DNA from: Synechococcus sp. AG-673-F03
GTDB lineage: Bacteria > Cyanobacteriota > Cyanobacteriia > PCC-6307 > Cyanobiaceae
NCBI GenBank assembly: GCA_003211205.1
Contig: QCTJ01000002.1
Span: 1-64,000, forward strand
Direction of reading: 5' to 3'
DNA: 64,000 bases
Both the position numbers and the translations under genes were made by a program. Positions 24,838 through 34,108 of the stretch are shown piece after piece. Below the pieces are notes generated by a model. That model made no database searches. It was not told where the DNA came from and saw only the letters and a list, made by a program, of their open reading frames with translations. Within the stretch, counting starts at the first letter, position 1; each line of letters opens with the position of its first letter.

Positions 24838-25872
24838 ATGACATCCAGCGTGAAGAGAGCCGCTGTGCCGGTGACGATTCTCACCGGCTTTCTTGGAGCA
24901 GGGAAAACGACGCTGTTGAACCACATCCTGAGCAATCAGGAGGGGCTTAAAACAGCTGTTCTAGTGAATGAATTCGGGGAGATCGGCATCGACAACGAGC
25001 TGGTGGTGAGCACCAACGAAGACATGGTCGAACTGAGCAACGGTTGCATCTGCTGCTCCATTAACGGAGAGCTGCTAGAGGCAGTCGAACGCATCCTCAA
25101 CAGACCCAAACCGGTCGAATACCTGGTGGTGGAAACCACGGGTCTGGCTGATCCGCTGCCTGTTGCCATGACGTTCCTGGGCAGCGAGCTGCGTGATTCG
25201 ACAAGGCTCGACTCGATCATCACCTTGATTGATGCTGAGAACTTCGGAGCAGAGGCCATTGCCAGCGAAGTCGGCCGATCACAGGTGATCTATGGCGACA
25301 TCCTGATGCTCAACAAGACCGATCTTGTCGATGAAGGGCGCGTGAAGGATGTCGAACAACAGCTGCGCGACGTCAAAAAGGATGCACGCATCCTGCACTC
25401 AGTGAAGGGGGATGTGCCGCTGCCCCTTCTCCTGAGCGTGGGTCTGTTCGAATCCGACCGAGTGGTGAACGAAAGCCATGACCATGAGCATGACCACGGG
25501 CACAGCCATGACCAAGGCCACAGCCACCATGACCATGGGCACAGCCATGACCACGGATTCGCGGATCATCTGGCCATCGAAGGCTTCACGTCACTGTCCT
25601 TCTCAAGCAGTGATCCCTTTGATCTGAGAGCCTTTCAGAATTTTCTCGACAACCACCTGCCTGAAAGCGTTTTTCGAGCCAAAGGAATTCTCTGGTTCAA
25701 GGAAAGCGAGCGACGTCACGTATTCCATCTGGCGGGCAAACGTTTCTCAATCGACGACAGCGACTGGACCGGGACCCGCAAGAACCAACTGGTGCTCATC
25801 GGCCGTGGACTCGACCATGACACCCTGAGGCATCAGCTCCAGGAATGCGTTGCCGTGCCTGTTAATCAGTAA
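24838..25872 (+). CDS. CobW/ZNG1-type metal GTPase
   Basis: 344-residue G3E GTPase and putative metallochaperone. The P-loop is GFLGAGKTTLLNH, the metal-binding CxCC is NGCICCSI, and the Walker B/G3 region is VVETTGLADP, with NKTD for guanine. A His/Asp-rich loop (residues ~210-242) holds about 14 His and probably binds Zn, Ni or Co. The C-terminal CobW domain follows (ILWFKESERRHVFHLAGKRF in part). Known members deliver Zn or Co under shortage. No Zur box was recognised upstream. Confidence 0.92.
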   Translation: MTSSVKRAAVPVTILTGFLGAGKTTLLNHILSNQEGLKTAVLVNEFGEIGIDNELVVSTNEDMVELSNGCICCSINGELLEAVERILNRPKPVEYLVVETTGLADPLPVAMTFLGSELRDSTRLDSIITLIDAENFGAEAIASEVGRSQVIYGDILMLNKTDLVDEGRVKDVEQQLRDVKKDARILHSVKGDVPLPLLLSVGLFESDRVVNESHDHEHDHGHSHDQGHSHHDHGHSHDHGFADHLAIEGFTSLSFSSSDPFDLRAFQNFLDNHLPESVFRAKGILWFKESERRHVFHLAGKRFSIDDSDWTGTRKNQLVLIGRGLDHDTLRHQLQECVAVPVNQ

Positions 25873-29019: not shown

Positions 29020-29859
29020 TTGACGGTTGTGCTCAATGCCTGCCTGAGCGGTTTGCAGATCGCCGTGGGGATTGGCTGCGGATCGATCGCATTGATCGGC
29101 GATGCCCTGCACAACGTCGGTGACGTGATGGGTCTCCTTTTGGGCTGGAGCGCGGAAAGCCTGAGCCAGAAACCAGCAAAGGGGCGATTCAGTTATGGAT
29201 TCGGACGCTCCACCCAGCTGGCAGCCGTCGCCAACGCAGTGTTGATCTTGATGGCCTCCGCGGTGGTCTGCGTGGAATCCGTCCAACGGTTCCGTCAACC
29301 AGAGCTAGTGGTGGCCTGGCCGGTCGCCATTGCCGCAGGCGCTGGTTTGTTCGTGAACCTGGTCTCTGCCCGTCTGTTCGGTTCCGATCATCATGGGGAT
29401 CTGAACCGTCGAGCAGCAGCTCTTCACCTCCTTGGCGATGCAGCCGTCTCAGCTGCGGTGCTGCTGAGCGCGTTGGTCGCCGGAATCGCAGGCTGGAAAT
29501 GGATTGATCCAATCACAGGTCTTGGAGTCGGCCTGAGCGTGGGATGGCTGGGGATCATGTTGTTGCGCGATGGCCTCGCCGAGCTGATGGATGAAGTTCC
29601 CCATCGGATTGATCCAGCCGCCGTTTTGGCCGATCTGCAAGCAATGCCAGGGGTGCAGGGAGTCCATCATCTGCACATCTGGTCCATCGGCGGAACGCGC
29701 GTGGCCCTCACTGTTCACCTGCAGAGAGACGCGGGCCTGAGCGATCAGGATCCGAAGCTGCTGTGCGGGGTTCGGCAGGCGATGCACCACAAGGGCATCG
29801 AGCACTGCACGGTTCAGCTGGAAGAGCCTGGCGAAGACTGCGAGGAAGCGCTCAGCTGA
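29020..29859 (+). CDS. cation diffusion facilitator transporter
   Basis: 279 residues from TTG 29020. CDF metal sites are seen as DALHNVGD in segment 2 and HLLGDAAVSA in segment 5, with six membrane segments and a C-terminal cytoplasmic domain (GVQGVHHLHIWSIGG). It exports divalent metals such as Zn, Co or Fe by proton exchange. The frame stays open upstream to 28936 and encodes a His run (LEHHHHHSQQAFR) typical of CDF N-termini, but holds no ATG or GTG, only CTG at 28981. The true start is uncertain. The 3' end overlaps the next gene by 46 bases. Confidence 0.88.
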   Translation: MTVVLNACLSGLQIAVGIGCGSIALIGDALHNVGDVMGLLLGWSAESLSQKPAKGRFSYGFGRSTQLAAVANAVLILMASAVVCVESVQRFRQPELVVAWPVAIAAGAGLFVNLVSARLFGSDHHGDLNRRAAALHLLGDAAVSAAVLLSALVAGIAGWKWIDPITGLGVGLSVGWLGIMLLRDGLAELMDEVPHRIDPAAVLADLQAMPGVQGVHHLHIWSIGGTRVALTVHLQRDAGLSDQDPKLLCGVRQAMHHKGIEHCTVQLEEPGEDCEEALS

Positions 29860-30806
29860 TCCCAACGATCGGCAATCAGCCGGTCCACCTTCACACCTGC
29901 CGCGGCCAGCAGATCCGCAAGAGTGACCACAAGGCGATAACTGAGTGCGACTGCAAGCAGCGCTGCCTCCGGCACGGATGAACCCAGGCGCAGAAGCAAC
30001 ACTGCCTCAAACACACCCAACCCCCCTGGAGCAGCAGGGATTACAAGTCCTGTGGCCCACGCCAGAGCAAAGGCTGCAATCCAGTGGCCAATCGGCAGCA
30101 CCGAGGTCAGCCCGAACACCTGAATGCAGCACCAGAAACCAGAGAAACGTGAGGCGATGAACACCAGCTCGGCCGTCAGCGGTGCCCAGGGATAAACATC
30201 ACGCCCACTGCCCAGCTGTTCCAGAGGAGGCAAGGAGCCCAGATCAGGATCAGAGCGGTTGAGTTGCCTTAAACGGCTGCGTTCAAGCCTGTAGAGCAAA
30301 GGTTCTCTCCAGCGTGGCAACAGCAGCAAAGCGGGGAGCGGTGTCAGCAAGGCCAGGCCGTTCTGCCAGCCACCGAAAGGGACCCAGAGCAGGGCAGCCA
30401 CCGCCATCAACATGGGCTCAAGCAAAACGGACACAAGTGCCGGCCCCGTACCAATGGAAGGACCCAAGGTCCGCACACGCTGAAGGAAATGCCACACTCC
30501 GCCGGGCAAGTACTTGAGCAAATTGCTGCTCAAATGAAGAGAAACAAGCGGTATTGAGCCTGAGCCATGGCCCAGCCATCGCACCAGAACCTGCCAGGCA
30601 CCCGCATTCGCAACCAAACTCAGCCAACTGAGGCCGAGAGCAAGCACAAGCCACCACCAGCCCTCAGACGTGATCGACAAAGAGCGCAGTCCTACGGCAT
30701 GACCCGCCAGCGCCCAGCCCACAAATCCGAGCGTGATCAGGGTGATCCACAGCTTCAAGCCTCCCGGGGGCTTCACCGACAGCAGGGATCGGAAATGCTT
30801 CAGCAT
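29814..30806 (-). CDS. UPF0104/LPG-synthase-TM family membrane protein
   Basis: 330 residues from ATG 30806 with about eight membrane segments (LWITLITLGFVGWALAG, WWWLVLALGLSWLSLVA and so on). The family signature is in SNLLKYLPGGVWHF and AAPGGLGVFEAVLLL. The family includes the flippase/synthase membrane domain of lysylphosphatidylglycerol synthase and mycobacterial or archaeal glycolipid proteins; no synthase domain is attached, so lipid transport is an inference. Its start overlaps the larC stop by 7 bases, so it is the last gene of a coupled four-gene operon. Confidence 0.85.
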   Translation of the reverse strand: MLKHFRSLLSVKPPGGLKLWITLITLGFVGWALAGHAVGLRSLSITSEGWWWLVLALGLSWLSLVANAGAWQVLVRWLGHGSGSIPLVSLHLSSNLLKYLPGGVWHFLQRVRTLGPSIGTGPALVSVLLEPMLMAVAALLWVPFGGWQNGLALLTPLPALLLLPRWREPLLYRLERSRLRQLNRSDPDLGSLPPLEQLGSGRDVYPWAPLTAELVFIASRFSGFWCCIQVFGLTSVLPIGHWIAAFALAWATGLVIPAAPGGLGVFEAVLLLRLGSSVPEAALLAVALSYRLVVTLADLLAAAGVKVDRLIADRWDQLSASSQSSPGSSS

Positions 30807-32035
30807 GTCCACTCCTGCTGTGCATTGAACTCGAGGGTGTCCTGGGAAAGCTGCTGCCAGAGAGTTTCTGGAGAGAGACCGGCGCGCTGTGCAAGCTGCT
30901 GGAGGGCATCCCGCTCGGGCTTCACGGACTGGGTTCCATCCGGCTTCAACATCTGCTTGGCCGCCAGCTCGCCCCATGGAGTGTGGAGGACTCCTTCACG
31001 ACGCGGCAGCACCCAGCGCCCCTGACGCCGTTCGCGCAGTCCCAGCGTTGGACTATCCCTCCACCAGATCCGGCGCAGATCCGCTGCCTGATGAGGCAGC
31101 ACCAGGGCCGTAACGGCAGTGCCTGGACGACCCTTCTTCATCTGCAACGGACAACAGGCCACGTCTAAGGCACCCGCATCACGCAGCTGCTGGATCAGCC
31201 ATGCCAAGGCTTCAGCCGACACATCATCAATCCAAGCCTCCTGGATGATCAGGTCCTGCCAACCGGGCTGGTTGGTTTCAACAGGAGGCTGAGGGTGCTG
31301 GCGAATGAGGCGCAAAAGGTTGGGACGGTCCAGCTGACGATGACCAAGGCCAGTTCCCACCAGCTCTGGAGCCAACTGATCTGGCCATCCGAACCCGTCA
31401 GCAAGCACAGCCATCAAAGCCAGACCGGTCGGAGTTGTGAGCTCAGCTTCCGGCCAGTCATCGCCCCAGCGCAGTTGCACACCATGACGTCGCGCCAGCT
31501 CGAGAACTGCTGGAGCAGGGACCGGCAGCCGCCCGTGAGTTGTGGCAACTGAGCCCCGTCCCGCTGGAGGAGGGACGCACCAGATCGACAGCGGCTGGAG
31601 ATGCTCCATGGCAGCGCAGACACCAACCACATCCACCAAGCTGTCAATGGCTCCAACTTCGTGAAAATGCACCTGGTCAGCGGGAATTCCGTGAACGGCT
31701 GCTTCAGCGTCAGCGAGGGCCGTGAACACTGACAGCACCCGCGCCTGCAATGAAGGAGCAAGCAAGGCATTGCCGATCCTTTGGCGCAACTCTCCCCAGT
31801 GTCGATGCGATGGATGGGGGTCTCGCCCTTCAACATCCACAAGGAGTCCACGCAAACCGCCGTTTCGCGCCTCCTCAACACGGAGCACATAGTCGTTCTC
31901 AAAGCCAAGCTCCCGCAGAGGGGCATGAATCACCTCAGGGGGGACCCCCAGATCAAGACAGGCCGCCAGCAACATGTCTCCGGCCAGACCGGTGGGACAG
32001 TCCACCAAGTAGGCAGCGGCGTTGCCAGGGGTCAT
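30800..32035 (-). CDS. larC: nickel pincer cofactor cyclometallase LarC
   Basis: 411 residues of the LarC/DUF111 family. It starts CPTGLAGDMLLAACLDLGVP, followed by VHFHEVGAIDSLVDVVG and TTPTGLALM, and the C-terminal part has VMLIEAWIDD-like IIQEAWIDDVSAEAL. LarC inserts nickel, using CTP, into the pincer cofactor of lactate racemase-type enzymes. Here it is one continuous gene, not split as in Lactobacillus. LarA, LarB and LarE are not in the window. Its start overlaps the upstream gene by 4 bases (ATGA type) and its stop overlaps the downstream gene by 7. Confidence 0.93.
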   Translation of the reverse strand: MTPGNAAAYLVDCPTGLAGDMLLAACLDLGVPPEVIHAPLRELGFENDYVLRVEEARNGGLRGLLVDVEGRDPHPSHRHWGELRQRIGNALLAPSLQARVLSVFTALADAEAAVHGIPADQVHFHEVGAIDSLVDVVGVCAAMEHLQPLSIWCVPPPAGRGSVATTHGRLPVPAPAVLELARRHGVQLRWGDDWPEAELTTPTGLALMAVLADGFGWPDQLAPELVGTGLGHRQLDRPNLLRLIRQHPQPPVETNQPGWQDLIIQEAWIDDVSAEALAWLIQQLRDAGALDVACCPLQMKKGRPGTAVTALVLPHQAADLRRIWWRDSPTLGLRERRQGRWVLPRREGVLHTPWGELAAKQMLKPDGTQSVKPERDALQQLAQRAGLSPETLWQQLSQDTLEFNAQQEWTC

Positions 32036-32670
32036 GTCAGCTCCGGATCGAGGCCCTCCAGCAGCCTGTCAGCGATGACATCCAGATCCTCAAGACGCTT
32101 TTTCAAAAGCTGTTCCACCTCACGTCGAGCACGGCGCTGCTCGCGTTGTGCGGTGGCCACATCCTGACCTGACAATCCCCAGATCCTGCCGAGCAGTGCC
32201 CGATCATCAGCCCCGCCACGAGCGGATCCCTCCAGGAGTGTCTCAGCCACCATCCCTGCCTGCAGAACACGACTCCAGCGGCGCAGGTCTTCCAGGGGTA
32301 ATCGAACCTGATCCGGGAGCTCGAATTCGGTGGCACCATTGCTACGCAAGCCTGCTTCCAGACAGGGACGAGTGCCCACCAGAACGCGACGCACCTTCAT
32401 CTCCTCCTCACGCGCAACCAGCCAGTGACCTGCCTCATGGCGCGCCACCCGTCGCAGACGCATCTTTCCTCCAGGGAGAGCTTCAGCCAGAAGATGCCCG
32501 CCCATTCCCTCCAACTGCGATGCATCGATGGTGAGTCCAAGCAAGCCGCCACCCACGAGCAGAGCGATCCAGGCAGGCGAGAGACCTACGAGCGGTCCGA
32601 ACACCGCGAGCCCTGTGCAACCGGCCACCGCCAAACCGGCAGTGGTACTGGAGACCGGAGAGGCATTCAT
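32032..32670 (-). CDS. stand-alone M41-like membrane protein with HEAGH
   Basis: 212 residues. Two hydrophobic segments occupy residues ~10-48, then a soluble part begins with RRVARHEAGHWLVA, a perfect zinc-peptidase motif at 78-82 as in FtsH (M41), with GGADDRALLGRIW farther on in place of the FtsH GGRAAE region. There is no AAA ATPase domain, so it cannot act as a normal FtsH. It could be a small intramembrane-anchored protease or an FtsH partner. Its start shares one base with the upstream gene and its stop overlaps larC by four bases. Confidence 0.8.
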   Translation of the reverse strand: MNASPVSSTTAGLAVAGCTGLAVFGPLVGLSPAWIALLVGGGLLGLTIDASQLEGMGGHLLAEALPGGKMRLRRVARHEAGHWLVAREEEMKVRRVLVGTRPCLEAGLRSNGATEFELPDQVRLPLEDLRRWSRVLQAGMVAETLLEGSARGGADDRALLGRIWGLSGQDVATAQREQRRARREVEQLLKKRLEDLDVIADRLLEGLDPELT

Positions 32671-33335
32671 CAGCTGCTAGCCGTCCGACTGCGGTCTGCG
32701 GGGCGGCGGGAGGCACCACCGCGCCCCTTGCCACCACGGGTGGGCATCGGTGCGATCACCTCGGCGGACTCAACTTGAAGCATCTGTCCCTGGCGACGCA
32801 CGTCCAGGCTGACGAAATGGCGCAGGTGCGCAAGCTCAATCTCACCACTGAGTTGCAACTTGAACGGCAAGGGCCGAAAGCCATCAGCGCGGGGTTGCTG
32901 ACGCACCTTGACCACAACATCCGAAGCTTCCGGTTTCGTATAGATGAGCTCGCCCCTGATCGAGAAATAATCGTCACCTTCAGGCAACGCATCGATGGAT
33001 GTGTCACCAGATTCCGTCTCCGCATCCGAAGCTGAAAGAGTGCTCGGCTCCCAGATTCCAGCGATCTGGAGATGCAACTGACCGGCCTCCCTGCACCGCG
33101 GGTACACCACCCAGAGGTGAGGCTTGTCCATATCGAGATGACGTCGCATCAACGTCAGCATGCGGCCCAGAACAACGGCATCAATCTCATGGCCGTCGCC
33201 ATCAATCAAGTGGCCACGGGTGCTCTGATCTTCAGATTCGGGCCGGAATAGTCCGCGCACGACGCCGATTGCCCGGTACTGCAGCGGCTCGGTCACCGCG
33301 GGAATGGGATGGTCGCGCATCAGATTCAGGGGCAT
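32670..33335 (-). CDS. conserved hypothetical protein, first gene of the larC operon
   Basis: 221 residues from ATG 33335 (an alternative at 33371 adds 12). The core appears to be an OB-like or beta-barrel domain (LQYRAIGVVRGLFRPE, HLIDGDGHEIDAVVLG) followed by a second half that repeats the same theme (YFSIRGELIYTKPEASDVVV) and a basic, Gly/Arg-rich tail (TRGGKGRGGASRRP). The tail suggests nucleic-acid binding, an inference. Function unknown. It heads the tightly packed operon with the M41-like protein, larC and the UPF0104 protein. Confidence 0.72.
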   Translation of the reverse strand: MPLNLMRDHPIPAVTEPLQYRAIGVVRGLFRPESEDQSTRGHLIDGDGHEIDAVVLGRMLTLMRRHLDMDKPHLWVVYPRCREAGQLHLQIAGIWEPSTLSASDAETESGDTSIDALPEGDDYFSIRGELIYTKPEASDVVVKVRQQPRADGFRPLPFKLQLSGEIELAHLRHFVSLDVRRQGQMLQVESAEVIAPMPTRGGKGRGGASRRPADRSRTASS

Positions 33336-33406
33336 CCACTGGCCCGCGGCAACTCTAGCCAGCTTCGACAAAGAGCCTCAGACTGGTCGGGCGTTCCCAC
33401 GACACG

Positions 33407-34108
33407 GTGCCGGCTTACAGCCGTCAAACAACGGAAACTCTGGCCAAGCTGGGCGCAGTCGCCTGCCTTTGTTTGATCGCAGGCTGGATGGTGACCCAGA
33501 TCTGGCCCGAGACGCCCTCTGCAACCACTCTCCAGAGCCAGCCCTCCGACAGCGACGTCTCAGGGCTGGAGATTCTCAAAATCCAGGTTCATGATTATCC
33601 GAGCGACTGGCGCTTGGCACTGTTGCTGGCTCGCACACACTACGAGAACGGAAATCGCGAAGCAGCGGTTCGCACCCTGAGACCTTTGCAGCGACTTCAC
33701 CCCGATCGGCTTCAGGCGATGACCCTATGGGCTCTTCTCGCCCAGGAGACCGACCAGGTCACAGAGCCAATGAAGCAATTGAACAAACGTTTCGACTCCC
33801 TGCCAGCTGAACGGCGACTGAAACTGGGGTTGTTGTTGGCCGATCTCGAGCGCTTGTCCGGAGAATCAAAAGCTGCTGCCGATCGCTATCGCAATCTCAT
33901 CAACGACAACCCCAAACGACCTGAGCCATTACTGGCATTTGCCCTGCTGAAACGGGATCAAGGTCGAGGAGACGATGCCATCGCTCTGCTGCGCAAGGCC
34001 ATGCCCTTGAGCAAAAAATCTGGCCTCAACGGGTATGGATCTCGAGACACTTGCATTGCGCTGGGCGCTCGAAGCGGCGCGCAATCGACCGGCAAGCCCA
34101 GGCCCTAA
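33407..34108 (+). CDS. TPR-repeat membrane protein, frameshifted 3' end
   Basis: 233 residues as read. A single N-terminal membrane segment (LAKLGAVACLCLIAGWMV) is followed by TPR repeats (WRLALLLARTHYENGNREAAVRTL; PEPLLAFALLKRDQGRGDDA). After SKKSGLNG the sense is lost; the +1 frame continues plausibly as MDLETLALRWALEAARNRP up to a stop at 34125-34127. The switch lies at or near the A6 run 34013-34018 or GGG 34031-34033. So the intact gene probably ends at 34127. Start GTG 33407. Likely a scaffold protein; function unknown. Confidence 0.75.
   Translation: MPAYSRQTTETLAKLGAVACLCLIAGWMVTQIWPETPSATTLQSQPSDSDVSGLEILKIQVHDYPSDWRLALLLARTHYENGNREAAVRTLRPLQRLHPDRLQAMTLWALLAQETDQVTEPMKQLNKRFDSLPAERRLKLGLLLADLERLSGESKAAADRYRNLINDNPKRPEPLLAFALLKRDQGRGDDAIALLRKAMPLSKKSGLNGYGSRDTCIALGARSGAQSTGKPRP

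Follow-up and report, generated by a model that had tools for sequence, protein, structure and literature searches.

What holds together four overlapping genes, one of them larC, on one strand of a picocyanobacterial genome, and is the bond a nickel cofactor? The question is raised by a locus of Synechococcus sp. AG-673-F03 (assembly GCA_003211205.1, 2.0 Mb and 81% complete). The window analysed here is the whole stretch of 64,000 nucleotides at positions 1 to 64,000 of contig QCTJ01000002.1. A preliminary description had suggested that the four genes serve one process, possibly the delivery of a nickel cofactor or membrane handling linked to it. Our analysis indicates that they probably form an operon specific to the picocyanobacterial lineage, built from the gene of the nickel insertase LarC, its older pairing with the gene P1, and two genes, P4 and P3, placed in front. 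Genomes are labelled G and fetched loci L; f1 is the family of the window organism (picocyanobacteria), the other f numbers denote other families, and G000 is the window assembly. From 5' to 3' on the minus strand the genes are as follows:

P4, 32670-33320, minus strand: first gene, 216 residues, read in the preliminary description as the frame 33371-32670
P3, 32032-32670, minus strand: 212 residues, HEAGH protein
LarC, 30800-32035, minus strand: full-length nickel insertase of nickel-pincer nucleotide (NPN) biosynthesis, with the LarC1 and LarC2 regions in a single frame
P1, 29814-30806, minus strand: last gene, 330 residues, LPG_synthase_TM-family membrane protein

The four coupled frames described at the outset are present, with overlaps of 1 base between P4 and P3, 4 bases between P3 and LarC and 7 bases between LarC and P1. 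The identities first given to the HEAGH membrane protein, LarC and the LPG-synthase-like protein also hold, by the HEAGH motif, PF01969 and PF03706, respectively. Because the P4 frames of the loci L076 and L077 cannot begin earlier, comparison of the frames suggests that P4 probably starts at the ATG at 33320 (MRDHP...) and not at the TTG at 33371, that is, 17 codons later. Purifying selection acts on all four genes, with ratios of nonsynonymous to synonymous polymorphism (pN/pS) of 0.04-0.37 against five relatives; the loci of the genus are short, so that P1 is seen only in part, and its ratio covers 88-93 codons only. A scan for the operon promoter found no sigma-70-like site, which says little for this organism.

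The gene order is conserved in relatives. A P3 search of 24 same-genus relatives recovered the locus in 23, and G002, a genus relative that is 70% complete, gave no P3 match. All 24 genus loci (the 23 relatives and the window's own) keep the order P4-P3-LarC-P1 together with the P3-LarC and LarC-P1 overlaps, with starts set by script at the nearest start codon. P4 and P3 overlap in 18 of the 24 and are separated by 4-47 bases in six. The P1 of L027 was missed in the first neighbourhood search and detected in a later one. Among other f1 genera, all four genes occur in L080 and L081, and P4-LarC-P1 without P3 in L075-L079. The best 80 of 178 named-record relatives of the locus were kept, and as far as each contig extends, 80 of 80 show an arrangement compatible with P4-(P3)-LarC-P1 on a single strand. 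P3 is present in nine of these, from Synechococcus, Vulcanococcus, Cyanobium, an uncultured cyanobacterium and a mis-labelled metagenome-assembled genome (MAG); it was not seen in the Prochlorococcus-labelled loci among the best 80, although one of these, L203, has no sequence upstream in which it could lie. The closest named records are a contig of a Roseibacillus MAG (96%) and Synechococcus sp. AG-679-A04 (89%). The LarC operon of the former (L195:192-1424) is Synechococcus-like, at 96% identity, and the contig is probably mis-binned.

Outside f1 the arrangement is different. A phylum sample of 194 genomes comprised 89 Cyanobacteriia and 105 others. P4 is present in 87 of the 89 and in none of the 105. 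With 10 kb as the limit, which was also applied to P1, P4 is near larC in 13/13 f1 genomes but in 0/73 other genomes having both genes. Its divergent neighbour in 7 of 11 non-f1 loci is a gene for a tetratricopeptide repeat (TPR) protein, with a small frame between in two; the same holds in the window, and the TPR gene is the probable older neighbour of P4. Moreover, G089 keeps P4 without having larB and larC, and G182 and G216 have larB and larC but no P4. In 24 non-f1 loci of the class, the search around larC did not recover P3. Outside f1, a co-directional VanY carboxypeptidase gene precedes P3 in five of nine loci, and Pfam confirmed two of these five. A profile search of 121 f1 genomes gave strong P3 matches in 50, weak ones only in 67 (those listed being mostly FtsH-sized frames) and none in 4. 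Counts of this kind were taken by hand from listings, here and below for the larC-Sua5, larB-ispF, AKR47 and f22 figures. As P4 and P3 have other neighbours elsewhere and P4 is not tied to larB and larC in G089, G182 and G216, we infer from gene order that the operon is probably a merger of older units.

The larC-P1 link is the only old one in the operon. P1 was detected (E 1e-20) in 77 of the 89 Cyanobacteriia and in 0/105 of the other genomes. It is single-copy, except for a second gene-sized match in G154 and a partial second one in G157; in G135 and G165 one P1 gene lies in two pieces. Of the 77 genomes with both genes, 38 have P1 downstream of larC in the same orientation and at most 10 kb away: 13/13 in f1 and 25/64 elsewhere, the latter from 6 of 21 non-f1 families. 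The matched regions are at most 500 bases apart in 15 of the 64 non-f1 genomes and less than 200 bases apart in some genomes of f21, f22, f23 and f32; at three loci they overlap. In G038, P1 lies 8.5 kb upstream of larC on the opposite strand, and in 38 genomes the two genes lie far apart or on different contigs. Under random placement, linkage within 3.5 kb is expected at about 0.00035 per genome, a figure to be read with the relatedness that makes the genomes non-independent.

The P1 protein scores 38 bits against PF03706 (LPG_synthase_TM; cut-off 33.4), which is also matched at E 0.01 by 15 of 16 aligned members. It is locally similar to MprF chains, and the bifunctional MprF model gives 33.8 bits, short of its cut-off of 600. 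Sixteen sequences share the motif NxxK[YF]xPG[GN]x[WG]Hx3R, in which N, K, P, G, H and R are invariant, including Lys98 and His106. No joint mention of larC, lysylphosphatidylglycerol and cyanobacteria was found in the open-licence literature searched.

The LarC frame matches PF01969 with 380 bits (cut-off 22.1) over profile positions 3-371 of 375. In this single frame, TIGR00299 and NF052512 both exceed their cut-offs; the NCBIfam scores of the two halves are 179.6 bits for LarC1 (cut-off 90) and 110.5 bits for LarC2 (cut-off 50). A full-length match to the solved nickel insertion protein PDB 12bi has an E of 3.9e-64. Sixty-five of 80 core columns conserved in 27 non-f1 LarC proteins are retained, including HFHEVGA, PTG and Lys300, Arg303 and Gly305. 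At one of the columns that differ, Gln275 is replaced by Glu in all 17 f1 LarC sequences aligned. Judged by these matches, the window LarC would insert nickel, in a reaction dependent on cytidine triphosphate (CTP), into pyridinium-3,5-bisthiocarboxylic acid mononucleotide (P2TMN). In L. plantarum, LarC is split by a frameshift into LarC1 and LarC2. A LarC split into two frames, which recalls that case, was seen in two Cyanobacteriia (G141:C17:61123-62324 and L104 of G225). One scan with a single query found no viral larC copies.

The other genes of the pathway were sought beyond the window. LarE is encoded in the own genome at G000:C3:13380-14150 (286 bits, cut-off 150). LarB exceeded its cut-off in 38 of 40 genomes checked, the exceptions being the own genome, with a weak partial match of 36 bits, and G022, which is 80% complete. 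LarB is present in G001, whose P3 is 100% identical to that of the window. Across the 89 Cyanobacteriia, LarC and LarE (over cut-off) each occur in 88, LarB in 86 and all three in 85. The search for larB, larE and LarA-family genes proposed in the preliminary description succeeded for larE in the own genome and for larB in relatives, and yielded no LarA-family (PF09861) match in the incomplete G000. Neither of the two outcomes named there as refuting, a gene order conserved in no relative or a genome entirely devoid of these genes, was observed. PF09861 gave three weak, near-cut-off matches in the class (G092, G113 and G129), and three strong and one weak match elsewhere in the phylum sample. 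The G092 frame (L041:1-1896) encodes a 631-residue distant LarA-family protein, matching models of that family weakly and at best over about 280 residues, beside a cyclic-nucleotide-binding-like protein named by eye.

Expression of the Synechocystis LarB, LarC and LarE homologs in E. coli yielded active NPN for the L. plantarum LarA, and nickel insertion was reported for the Synechocystis LarC homolog in E. coli, according to PMC11796402. The same paper reports that most cyanobacteria lack LarA and that the cofactor user is unidentified; cofactor synthesis for another protein without LarA is already published there. Several candidates for that user were rejected. LarA itself is too rare to be the general NPN client in cyanobacteria, with only the three weak matches in the class. 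The larB neighbours, ispF-like and trmD-like genes named by eye and a family-5 solute-binding protein in five non-f1 loci, offered no candidate. Neither did the larE neighbours, of which f1 and other families share little. CpmA of S. elongatus presumably belongs to the LarB family. CpmA is a reported clock-output factor (PMC3549803).

The two front genes encode proteins of other folds. P3 has two hydrophobic-looking N-terminal helices, which probably span the membrane, followed by a HEAGH-bearing peptidase fold. Comparison of its model with the FtsH M41 peptidase 9a2p by VIA-align gave a Z of 17.0 and a root-mean-square deviation (rmsd) of 2.2 over 143 residues. HEAGH (His78-His82) and Asp156 are invariant in 18 homologs, and Asp156 presumably corresponds to the third zinc ligand of FtsH. 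P3 reaches 17 bits against the M41 model PF01434, below the cut-off of 29.9, and within its 212 residues, made up of the N-terminal helices and the peptidase fold only, there is no AAA+ ATPase module. P4 was first described as an unknown beta-rich protein. Neither Pfam nor NCBIfam gave a match for it at E 1, and the beta-rich character can be refined: P4 is predicted to be a tandem OB-fold (oligonucleotide/oligosaccharide-binding fold) protein. The best of five models (predicted local distance difference test score 71; 44-53 for the other four) contains two OB folds like those of single-stranded DNA-binding protein (SSB), with Thermus SSB 2fxq as the nearest structure (Z 10.5, rmsd 4.0 over 145 residues, VIA-align), and the tail is basic and glycine-rich. 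A Foldseek search with the P3 and P4 models returned nothing at E <=0.001, and the fold statements rest on VIA-align re-examination of its weaker matches.

Based on these results, we propose the following course. The operon would have formed in the picocyanobacterial ancestor, when P4 and P3 were placed before the older larC-P1 pair. The larC product may act as a CTP-dependent nickel insertase that finishes the NPN made with LarB and LarE, encoded elsewhere in the genome, and NPN would then pass to a non-LarA protein. By position the four genes would be co-expressed, and a shared pathway appears plausible only for larC and P1. Both the merger and a meaning of the larC-P1 pair are read from gene neighbourhoods. 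The dissected operon shows P4 and P3 as probable passengers, and the conserved larC-P1 pair becomes a concrete and cheap first candidate for the question of the user of this rare nickel cofactor.

Several observations weigh against this proposal. Fifteen of the 80 LarC core columns differ in the window; PF01969 scores the f1 LarC proteins at 365-397 bits, compared with 434-513 for the other unsplit Cyanobacteriia LarCs; and, in the comparison with the five relatives, the rate of evolution is higher for LarC than for P3 and P4. Owing to these three points an altered LarC function is possible. LarB over the cut-off was not found in the own assembly, which is 81% complete. Between the window TPR protein and the TPR proteins encoded beside other P4 genes, the similarity is weak (best E 5e-7). 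Instead of a merger, an old operon could have been broken elsewhere. In addition, the genus-wide coupling of four genes could reflect a real shared role that unlinked genes fill in other cyanobacteria.

Three further genes lie around the operon:

TPR protein gene, 33407-34108, plus strand: divergent from P4 and outside the operon
Cation-efflux (CDF) transporter gene, 29020-29859, plus strand: convergent, with a 46-base overlap with the 3' end of P1
CobW-family GTPase gene, 24838-25872: separated from the window larC by about 5 kb

At 233 residues, the TPR frame of the window is shorter than its cluster members in L078, L081 and L106 (278-326 residues), and its C-terminal part may lie in another frame. 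A gene of the window's CobW cluster sits directly after larC in family f17 (L092).

The best-surviving alternative is pure streamlining, by which compact genomes gathered four unrelated genes under one promoter and the larC-P1 neighbourhood was inherited and has no functional meaning. We give it somewhat less than an even chance. It overlaps with the lineage-specific operon proposed here and differs only in denying the larC-P1 pair a meaning. It agrees with the different partners found in the older neighbourhoods of these genes and with two control pairs: larC adjoins a Sua5/YrdC gene divergently in 19 of 24 non-f1 loci (two checked by Pfam), and larB lies near an ispF-like gene, named by eye, in 4 of 12 loci. 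Old neighbourhoods of seemingly unrelated genes are not rare, since both linkages persist, and therefore P1 as a cofactor partner is a lead and not a result. However, larC and P1 are co-directional in all 38 linked genomes, including six non-f1 families, and the spacings below 200 bases in four families, with overlap at three loci, argue against mere neighbourhood.

That the four genes act jointly in one membrane-linked process delivering or using the nickel cofactor, as first suggested, appears unlikely. The constant overlaps in the genus, the order in those named loci with room for it, the assignment of LarC to a nickel-inserting family, the cation-efflux gene at the 3' end of the operon and the nearby CobW gene are in its favour, and the conserved order, larE and the larB of relatives bear out part of it. 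A single nickel process for the whole set is not supported: P4 is near larC only in f1, and P3 was not found near larC in the 24 non-f1 loci. P4 and P3 adjoin TPR and VanY genes elsewhere, Prochlorococcus retains P4-LarC-P1 without P3, strong P3 is confined to 50 of the 121 f1 genomes, and P4 is kept where larB and larC were lost (G089) and lost where they were kept (G182 and G216).

The weakest alternative, by which P1 is a functional NPN partner, a membrane protein carrying, receiving or depending on the cofactor or its product, would explain larC-P1 and draws on the restriction of P1 to Cyanobacteriia, its position after larC in 38 of 77 genomes and the invariant Lys98 and His106, but it is quite improbable given that P1 was not found (E 1e-20) in 11 LarC-bearing genomes of the class or in lar-bearing genomes outside it, that the P1 of G038 lies upstream on the other strand, and that the control linkages persist as well. 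G089 (f22, 3.8 Mb), the single genome of the class in which larC is missing, is a natural loss that touches this point: it lacks larB, larC and P1, keeps larE and P4, and among 24 f22 genomes is the only one without larC and also the only one without P1, a single case in which one deletion could have removed larC and P1 together. The stricter version, that P1 is the missing non-LarA partner and binds NPN, perhaps through Lys98 and His106, or acts at the membrane on the product of an NPN enzyme, seems very improbable.

A candidate setting for a non-LarA cofactor user, to judge from its gene neighbourhoods, lies in f38, a sister family of non-photosynthetic relatives. LarC occurs in 25 sampled f38 genomes, a twenty-residue scrap in G205 not being counted, and no sampled f38 genome has PF09861 over its cut-off. 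Neighbourhoods were fetched for 22 of the 25 (L109, L110 and L171-L190). In 21 of the 22, the neighbours of the lar genes include an aldo/keto reductase (AKR47), a NapH-like ferredoxin (FeS46) and TatC, and 20 also have TatA. AKR47 carries a Tat-like signal and two 4Fe-4S motifs. A CbiM-like permease gene and larE follow LarC in most loci; three loci have inserted genes, and L172 is the exception among the 22. AKR47 above 600 bits was found in 24 genomes, all among the 25 with LarC, G095 being the one without. A divergent full-length AKR47-FeS46 pair is nevertheless kept in four genomes without lar genes (G093, G177, G185 and G205); G151 has a strong FeS46 and AKR47 in two frames, and AKR47 is partial or broken in G042, G153, G187 and G197 and weaker in G052. 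The co-loss of AKR47 and lar genes could result from physical linkage alone. As the NPN client of cyanobacteria AKR47 was rejected, being absent from Cyanobacteriia at E 1e-60, with AKR47 or its partner kept in lar-less genomes. No joint mention of nickel-pincer and aldo-keto reductase was found in the open-licence literature searched.

Compared with known systems, the window LarC resembles the LarC of PDB 12bi, 6bwo and Synechocystis P72725 in the full-length match to 12bi, the presence of both LarC regions and the conserved core. The window larC has none of larB, larE and larA beside it and sits with P4, P3 and P1. P1 shares the LPG_synthase_TM region with the flippase region of MprF and PF03706; its 330 residues leave no room for a transferase domain, and its subfamily is confined to Cyanobacteriia in our sample. 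P3 has the M41 fold in common with FtsH, and the AAA+ module occurs in FtsH only. By description, P3 resembles VIR3 of Arabidopsis, which PMC9166295 presents as a HEAGH-bearing membrane protein that lacks an ATP-binding domain. The closest parallel to the pathway is that of Synechocystis sp. PCC 6803, where NPN is made without LarA, similar to the occurrence of LarB, LarC and LarE without a strong LarA across the class. That report, as far as its available text goes (PMC11796402), describes the biosynthetic activity, and the present analysis adds the gene neighbourhoods, P1 and the picocyanobacterial operon.

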